Positions 9,001 through 14,696 of a stretch of 54,680 nt of DNA are shown here, piece by piece; position 1 is the stretch's first letter, and each line of letters starts with the position of its first letter. The position numbers and the translations under genes are program-made. The stretch is from Selenomonadales bacterium OttesenSCG-928-I06. Lineage in GTDB: Bacteria > Bacillota > Negativicutes > Sporomusales > Sporomusaceae. The DNA is taken from assembly GCA_030266395.1 (NCBI GenBank), contig JAJDHX010000004.1:1-54680 (forward strand), in the 5' to 3' direction. The notes under the pieces are model-generated. The model was not told the origin of the DNA. It saw nothing but the letters and a program-made list of their open reading frames with translations, and ran no database searches.

Positions 9001-9327
9001 AAAAACGCTCCTATCGGCAAACACTTACCAATAGGGGCGACTTAAACCGCGGTACCACCCTACATTATACTCTAATCAACCATACTTACATTAAAACTGC
9101 CTTTAAGGCCTGTCTTTTTAGTAGGCTTTCTAATTAACGCTTAGAAAACGCTTTTACCTATTTGCGTATGTATACACTTTAAGCAAAAGAGTTCATGGGT
9201 GAGTATTGAACTTAAGGTCCGCATCGATTTTCACCAAACATCGACTCTCTGAGGCGGTTTCACTAAAGTGTTTATCCCAATCATCACTTTTTTCGTTTTT
9301 TTATGTCAAAGATACTCTAAAGTATTG
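9001..9327 (-). promoter_or_regulatory. T-box leader, probably leucine (CUC), controlling the ilv-leu operon
   Basis: Minus strand contains AGGGTGGTACCGCGG T-box, AGAGAGTCGATG and TGGTGAAA stem-I motifs, and terminator CGCCCCTATTGG-N10-CCGATAGGAGCGTTTTT at 9001-9039. Confidence 0.93.
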
Positions 9328-9637: not shown

Positions 9638-9713
<76 letters not shown>

Positions 9714-9717
9714 ATAT

Positions 9718-9792
9718 TGGTGACCCGTAGGGGATTCGAACCCCTGTTACCGCCGTGAAAGGGCGGTGTCTTAACCGCTTGACCAACGGGCC
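9718..9792 (-). tRNA. tRNA-Glu (anticodon TTC)
   Basis: GGCCCGTTGGTCAAGCGG...CCGCC-CTTTCAC-GGCGG...GGTTCGAATCC...CCA. Confidence 0.95.
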
Positions 9793-9797
9793 TTATT

Positions 9798-9873
9798 TGG
9801 CTCCTCGAGTAGGACTCGAACCTACAACAACTCGGTTAACAGCCGAGTGCTCTACCGATTGAGCTATCGAGGA
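9798..9873 (-). tRNA. tRNA-Asn (anticodon GTT)
   Basis: TCCTCGATAGCTC...CTCGG-CTGTTAA-CCGAG...GGTTCGAGTCC...GAGGAGCCA. Confidence 0.95.
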
Positions 9874-12849: not shown

Positions 12850-13674
12850 TTACTTATTCTCTACTGTAGACACACCTGTTTCAGCAAATGTTTTCATGTT
12901 TTTTGATAAATTTAGAGACATTTTAAGTAGAAATAAAAACAAAAGACCACCTGTTCCGTTAAGCTTGGTAAATTCAAAATCCAAACATGGAGCTATTTTT
13001 AATTTCTGTAAAATTAATTTGTAAATTGGATTATCAAGCTTACTTGGCATAAATAAAAACTCTTTAACCAGAGGACATATTTCGGTAGCAACTAAGGCAG
13101 CTATACTTGCAGCAACTGAATCAATTATAATCAAAGTTCTTTTTTCTGCCGCTTTTAAAATAATTCCAATCATAATTACTATTTCAAAGTTTCCCATATT
13201 GTTCAGCAAATCCACAGGTTCAACGTTTTCTTTAATTAAACTAATATCTAATTTTAAAATGCCCTCTCCTAAAACATCACTTAAACAAATAACATTGCAT
13301 TCTTCAGATACTTCTCTTTCTAAAAACTGAGCACCTTTGTCTATTAACCTTAAAATATCTTCCTGTTTTGTAATGTCACAATCTTTAAAATCCTCATTAA
13401 ATAAAACAATATCAGTGTTCTGTTTTTCTGCCAGAAAAGCCAAAAAAGATTCTTTAAAATCAGAGGCTTTCTTGTCTGAAGTCGCAACTAAAATTAATTC
13501 TGATTTTAAAAAACAAAAATGATCACAAGATAATATACCAGCAAGCCTCACTGATAACTGTTCTAAAATTCCTAAACTATTGATAGGCTTGATAAGATTA
13601 TCCCATCTTTCCTGACAATTTTTTAAAGAACTTTTATCTAAAGGCTCTGTTTTTTTTATAGTACCGATTAACAT
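12850..13674 (-). CDS. Divergent CobT-family protein lacking catalytic motifs; ArsB-like partner subunit of a phenolic-base cobamide phosphoribosyltransferase
   Basis: CobT-like ERWDNLIKPINSLGILEQLSVRLAGI N-terminus and KNMKTFAETGVS C-terminus; RLGEG region reads KLNGTGG (no Glu); lies directly downstream of the CobT-like gene. Confidence 0.7.
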   Translation of the reverse strand: MLIGTIKKTEPLDKSSLKNCQERWDNLIKPINSLGILEQLSVRLAGILSCDHFCFLKSELILVATSDKKASDFKESFLAFLAEKQNTDIVLFNEDFKDCDITKQEDILRLIDKGAQFLEREVSEECNVICLSDVLGEGILKLDISLIKENVEPVDLLNNMGNFEIVIMIGIILKAAEKRTLIIIDSVAASIAALVATEICPLVKEFLFMPSKLDNPIYKLILQKLKIAPCLDFEFTKLNGTGGLLFLFLLKMSLNLSKNMKTFAETGVSTVENK

Positions 13675-13679
13675 GATTA

Positions 13680-14696
13680 TCAGTCCTTATTTAAAAAACT
13701 TAAAAACATTTCTAAAAACTCAATTGTAATAGCTGAACCCACAGATTCACCTATTCTCATATTTAAACTAAGATAAGGCTTAAGTTCTAAAATATTCAGC
13801 ATAAGACTATGCGCCTTTTCTGATGATAACTGTGAAGCTAATAAATATTCCTTAACCATTGGCTGCAAATTATAGGCTAATAAAGCTGCCACACTAGAGT
13901 TAAAGCCATCTATAATAACAACTGCTCTGTTTGCCGCTACTGCCAAAATAACACCTACCAGAAATCCTGTTTCATATCCTCCTAATTTCATCAAAACATC
14001 AAGGGGGTCGTTTATATCTGGATTATTTATCGCAATTGCCTTTTCAACTACCGCTACTTTGTTTTTGCGCTGTGTCTCAGAAATCCCGCTGCCATATCCT
14101 GTCGCTTCATCAGCCGAAATTTCACAAAGAACAGCAGTAACAGCAGCGTTTGAAGTAGTATTTCCTATCCCCATTTCACTCAAACTAAAACAATTATAAC
14201 CTTCTTTTATTCTTTCTGTTGCAAATTTGATTCCTAATTCAATAGACTTTATAGCATCTTCAAAAAGCATAGCAGGACCTTGAGTAATATCTTGGGTACC
14301 AGATGCTATTTTTTTATTGAAAATACCAGGCAAATAAGATATATCTTTCTCTGCCCCCACATCAACTACAAATAAATCAGCTTTACAGAAATCAGAAGCA
14401 ACATTAACCGCTGCACCTTTATCAATCAAATAGCTTCTGGTCATTTGAATAGTTGTTTCAGGCGGGTAAGCACTCACTCCTAAATGAGCCACACCATGGT
14501 CAGCAACAGCAGTAATTATACATTTCTTTAAAGAAATTTTCTCTGTTCCCATAATCTCTGTCAGCTTAACTACCATCTTTTCTAAATCTTTTGGCAGATC
14601 TCCGGCAAAATTATTTTGTAGTTTTAAAGCCGGCATCTCAGCTGTATTTTTCTCAGGTGAAATTATTTTTTTTATTGTCTTAAAAAGAAGTTCCAC
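13680..14696 (-). CDS. cobT: Nicotinate-nucleotide--dimethylbenzimidazole phosphoribosyltransferase family (CobT; ArsA-like)
   Basis: ADHGVAHLGVSAYP, GTQDITQGPAM, EMGIGNTTSNAAVTAVL, GYETGFLVGVILAVAANRAVVIIDGF, MRIGESVGSA (Glu retained); probable GTG start. Confidence 0.88.
   Translation of the reverse strand: MELLFKTIKKIISPEKNTAEMPALKLQNNFAGDLPKDLEKMVVKLTEIMGTEKISLKKCIITAVADHGVAHLGVSAYPPETTIQMTRSYLIDKGAAVNVASDFCKADLFVVDVGAEKDISYLPGIFNKKIASGTQDITQGPAMLFEDAIKSIELGIKFATERIKEGYNCFSLSEMGIGNTTSNAAVTAVLCEISADEATGYGSGISETQRKNKVAVVEKAIAINNPDINDPLDVLMKLGGYETGFLVGVILAVAANRAVVIIDGFNSSVAALLAYNLQPMVKEYLLASQLSSEKAHSLMLNILELKPYLSLNMRIGESVGSAITIEFLEMFLSFLNKD

Follow-up and report, generated by a model that had tools for sequence, protein, structure and literature searches.

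A Tandem arsA-arsB Locus in a Selenomonadales Bacterium Encodes a Core-Eroded ArsB: Catalytic Motifs and Small-Domain Ends Are Divided between Two CobT Homologues

Two adjoining CobT-family open reading frames in the genome of Selenomonadales bacterium OttesenSCG-928-I06 very probably encode an ArsAB base phosphoribosyltransferase, in which ArsA is the catalytic chain and ArsB completes the base pocket, with phenol or p-cresol as the most likely substrate. The genes lie on the minus strand of the 54,680-nucleotide stretch of DNA that we analyzed (the window), where an earlier note made from the sequence had recorded them, and both are present as it described: arsA at 13680-14696 (338 aa, GTG start), the predicted catalytic subunit, and arsB at 12850-13674 (274 aa), a putative non-catalytic partner subunit with an eroded core. 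Both products match the Pfam family DBI_PRT (308.7 bits for ArsA and 137.8 bits for ArsB, against a cut-off of 22.6), and both fall below the cut-off of TIGR03160, the equivalog model for the singleton DMB CobT (307.7 and 118 bits; cut-off 319.3). The intergenic gap is 5 bases, and the ribosome-binding site and start codon of arsB (AAGGACTGATAATCATG; 13672-13688, minus strand) place the ribosome-binding site, AAGGA, just 5′ of the arsA stop codon; the two genes thus appear to be translationally coupled. No RNA family, cobalamin riboswitch included, was found near the pair, and a promoter scan at the locus gave results at chance level. Elsewhere in the window, a T-box leader (9030-9293 and 9641-9873, minus strand) lies upstream of ilvN/ilvC-like genes and adjoins three tRNA genes.

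The genes are orthologous to Sporomusa ovata arsA and arsB, as judged by sequence, trees and fold. Among solved structures, window ArsA matches S. ovata ArsA (4hdk_A) over its whole length with 310 bits, against at most about 170 bits for the CobTs. The best PDB sequence match of window ArsB is S. ovata ArsB (4hdk_B), to which it is 26% identical, and the same chain is the best fold match (TM 0.87) of its AF2 model (pLDDT 88.7, pTM 0.90). The earlier note had read the pair as ArsAB and proposed a profile search and phylogeny against CobT. Phylogeny places the two proteins in the ArsA and ArsB groups: a tree of 106 sequences separates ArsA, ArsB and CobT, with window ArsA inside the first (support 100) and window ArsB inside the second. 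In a smaller and more careful tree, the ArsA clade containing the window protein is supported at 99/96, and an approximately unbiased (AU) test rejects a CobT position for it (p 0.013). Its membership in ArsA is firm. The branch that leads to window ArsB is long, and for this protein the AU test fails to reject a CobT position (p 0.089); in the smaller tree the starred sets that hold it (11, 16 and 19 rows) contain ArsB only. Its assignment draws on its sequence marks (the C of NCQ, DNL.KP and MKTF are ArsB-typical residues), its fold and its gene order. A relative placed in the same family as the window genome (G008, locus L121) carries near-complete matches to S. ovata ArsA and ArsB (735 and 698 bits).

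The motifs of a complete CobT are shared out between the two genes, all of them on the minus strand. ArsA has TQDITQGPAM (14268-14297); EMGIGNTT (14154-14177), which holds the conserved Glu equivalent to E174 of CobT in the phosphate/ribose region and whose E and N are found in 100% of ArsA proteins but in 37% and 33% of ArsB proteins; and MRIGESVGSA (13731-13760), whose Glu, equivalent to CobT E317, is present in 100% of ArsA and CobT proteins and 54% of ArsB proteins. Every motif named in the earlier note is there, and the tail is missing, as it had said: the protein ends in FLSFLNKD. The alignment adds that the N-terminal KPxGSLG has also been lost, NNFAGDLP (14592-14615) standing in its place, so that both ends are gone. 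ArsB presents the converse. It keeps the N-terminal half of the small domain (RWDNLIKPINSLG; 13570-13608; K, P, S and L invariant in ArsB) and its C-terminal tail (MKTFAETGVS, 12868-12897; M, T, F and V invariant in ArsB and lost in ArsA), and in FTKLNGTGG (12946-12972) the catalytic Glu is gone. The loss of GNTT and of this Glu, with both ends retained, is what had been read from the downstream frame before; we find that it also lacks the first Glu and about 75 core residues. Every invariant end residue is nevertheless kept (K29, P30, S33, L34, M260, T262, F263 and V268), and within the pair the catalytic residues are in ArsA only.

A division of motifs of this sort might be expected if a single cobT had been broken in two by a frameshift or by recombination. 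We reject that account as having almost no chance of being right, since the two frames overlap in the family positions that they cover, instead of dividing one protein into halves, and in the tree each belongs to a separate set of orthologues.

The same reciprocity holds across the family. Mean conservation, taken in order over the N-end, the three segments of the core and the C-tail, comes to 1.74, 2.78, 2.86, 2.65 and 1.45 bits for 58 ArsA proteins and to 2.85, 1.42, 1.22, 1.83 and 2.68 bits for 53 ArsB proteins. ArsA shows 100% conservation of the second Glu and, within EMGIGNTT, of E-M-G-I and N-T, against a decaying KPxGSLG region and C-tail. For ArsB it is the end residues that reach 100% (K, P, S and L at the N-terminus; M, T, F and V at the C-terminus), with core motifs conserved at about 25-60%. 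On these alignments the split is a family rule, by which ArsA keeps its core and loses its ends and ArsB keeps its ends while its core erodes, and the window pair is a sharp case of it. The pattern agrees with the earlier proposal of one catalytic and one completing chain.

It could be argued that arsB is instead a decaying pseudogene, leaving ArsA to act alone or as a homodimer, and the eroded core, the loss of both Glu residues, the long branch and a GC content below that of arsA (29% versus 35%) are features that such a gene would share. We consider this very improbable. The reading frame is intact and apparently coupled in translation to arsA, all of the invariant end residues are retained within a confidently predicted fold, and core erosion of like kind has occurred in many lineages with the ends kept every time; moreover, ArsA is without the ends that it would need to work alone.

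The preferred reading, a catalytic ArsA completed by ArsB, has a structural rationale. In CobT, the N- and C-terminal pieces make up a small domain that covers the active site of the neighboring chain. The S. ovata ArsAB enzyme is said to be a pseudosymmetric heterodimer that is active in ArsA only. CobT of Salmonella and Thermus shares its fold and chemistry with the window pair, and the base pocket of the Salmonella enzyme is formed by both chains (PMC9561151); these CobTs, however, are homodimers in which each chain carries both functions, whereas the window pair divides them. If the small domain acts in trans on a pocket of this sort, the motif division follows, because ArsA would need the large domain only and ArsB the small domain only. 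In the dimer geometry and activity that we infer for the window pair, ArsA would carry the whole catalytic large domain and would use nicotinate mononucleotide as phosphoribose donor for a lower-ligand base, in all likelihood phenol or p-cresol, yielding an alpha-ribotide for the cobamide tail. Since neither KPxGSLG at the N-terminus nor MxTFxEA at the C-terminus is left of its own small domain, it would depend on ArsB, whose own catalytic core would be dead and eroding, to supply that domain across the dimer interface and close the base pocket. Thus ArsB is most likely a small domain provided in trans, and it seems to survive only to complete the active site of its partner. The catalytic-plus-completing division of the two chains is well supported.

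The locus belongs to a kind already known, the unusual degree of ArsB erosion making it a variant. Like S. ovata ArsAB (4hdk, 4hdm, 4hdn, 4hdr, 4hds), it consists of two tandem CobT homologues, with catalytic motifs present and the C-tail absent in ArsA, and GNTT lost and the tail kept in ArsB; S. ovata ArsB, however, has 350 aa and retains the LGEG Glu, whereas in window ArsB, 274 aa long, both that Glu and the core residues noted above are missing. Veillonella ArsAB shares the tandem order, and its ArsA falls in the same subclade as window ArsA with weak support (84/81), but its ArsB has 360 aa (locus L007). The same division of labor is taken furthest in Pectinatus, where ArsA and a miniature ArsB are fused (L004, L180-L184): here the two genes of the window are replaced by a single polypeptide from which nearly all of the ArsB core has been deleted. 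The Pectinatus brassicae fusion has 469 aa, and its ArsB part of about 125 residues is essentially the two ends; nearly full-length matches at 64-67% identity occur in four further species or genomes of the genus. In a comparison of two of these species, identity is 73-74% for the ArsB ends and 12% for the linker, so constraint acts on the ends. The scores of the fusion model (pLDDT 93.5, pTM 0.94) are in keeping with a small ArsB part firmly seated on ArsA.

Gene arrangements vary considerably among 60 related genomes. Tandem arsA-arsB with both products of at least 300 aa was found in 31 and tandem genes with a shorter ArsB in 3, of which one is truncated at a contig end; 5 show arsA-cobS-arsB, 13 have one fused A-B reading frame, and 3 have ArsA without ArsB at the locus. 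The fusions lend indirect support to a heterodimer of the separate chains, and fused forms are present in rumen Selenomonadaceae (L026, L042). The arsA-cobS-arsB order, seen in the five Negativicutes loci and in L006, ties the pair to cobamide assembly. The L006 contig is labeled Acholeplasmataceae and its arrangement is of the Negativicutes type, so that either a mislabeled or misbinned genome or a transfer would account for it. In two other genomes (L129 and L134, in G017 and G022), a complete CobT-like gene replaces ArsB in the order arsA-cobS-cobT, cobS being read in L129 only; this is possibly an intermediate of the ArsAB split. Orphan, divergent CobT-like proteins of 341 aa that lean toward ArsB, with no ArsA at the locus, occur in L141 and L173 (G029 and G060). 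On four contigs (G198:C43, G090:C58, G058:C27 and G184:C4) the matches cross in-frame stops, with read-through frames of >600 aa; these are perhaps tandem arsA-arsB genes lying in one frame and split by stops.

Phenol or p-cresol specificity is likely for the window enzyme, although its sequence does not by itself assign a substrate. In ArsA, the segment SAYPPETTIQM (14442-14474, minus strand) places a Tyr and a Met, by spacing, at the positions of S80Y and Q88M in the CobT triple variant S80Y/Q88M/L175M, for which there is a PDB entry with p-cresol. Thermus CobT has Tyr and Met at the same positions (AYPQEVTRQM), and since these residues are common to ordinary CobTs they are not diagnostic of ArsA. 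The pair could be a lower-ligand enzyme of ordinary mechanism acting mainly on a benzimidazole or a purine, as the organism's sole CobT. Pocket residues (Y/M/M) that are not specific to ArsA would allow this, as would the crystallization of S. ovata ArsAB with DMB (4hdr) in addition to phenol and p-cresol (according to PDB entry titles). The earlier note had held that a second complete cobT would count against its reading, and the 72%-complete assembly yielded no CobT besides this pair, which also suits ArsAB as the sole CobT. Nevertheless, window ArsA groups, if loosely, with that of Veillonella, and Veillonella parvula, which has separate cobT and arsAB genes, is a reported producer of p-cresolyl cobamide (PMC8123684). 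We regard a benzimidazole or purine as an unlikely main substrate, with perhaps one chance in a handful, and continue to favor a phenolic one.

The genome that would use this cobamide is 1.33 Mb in size, and in its 72%-complete assembly we found neither CobS, CobU, CbiB and CbiD nor methylmalonyl-CoA mutase and NrdJ. A PduO-type adenosyltransferase is present. Four hits to the B12-binding domain were considered as MetH or mutase and set aside by eye, three lying in radical-SAM-type proteins and the fourth, a weak one, in an IMP-dehydrogenase-like protein. All 41 relatives with completeness of 90% or more and contamination of 5% or less have CobS. Possibly the cob cluster lies in the missing 28% of the genome, or else most of the pathway has been lost with ArsAB remaining.

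For phenolic bases, the literature names ArsA and ArsB as a tandem pair of cobT homologues that is nearly restricted to Negativicutes, and a survey that required tandem cobT genes of 300-800 aa each, a filter aimed at annotation errors and not a property of the enzyme, counted 27 species (PMC6461909). With an ArsB of 274 aa, the window pair fails that size criterion and would be missed by it; 31 of the 52 relatives with both parts at the locus would pass. A query built from ArsA and the miniature ArsB has strong matches in 262 of 301 Negativicutes genomes, an upper figure because some matches may be CobT or ArsA without ArsB. We found no description of the fusions or of eroded ArsB in a search confined to openly available papers. 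We lean toward the view that ArsB is on a repeated path to a detached "lid," minimal in Pectinatus, through independent erosion and fusion in Negativicutes, and that producers of phenolic cobamides number far more than 27 species, the survey filter having omitted eroded and fused forms. Phenolyl cobamides are reported to be abundant in the rumen, in feces and in a dechlorinating enrichment, with just two producers known (PMC8123684). Eroded, cobS-interrupted and fused forms of ArsAB would all escape the published tandem-gene criterion. The erosion series, in turn, may be viewed as a natural experiment on the minimum of a duplicated subunit that is needed to complete the active site of its partner.
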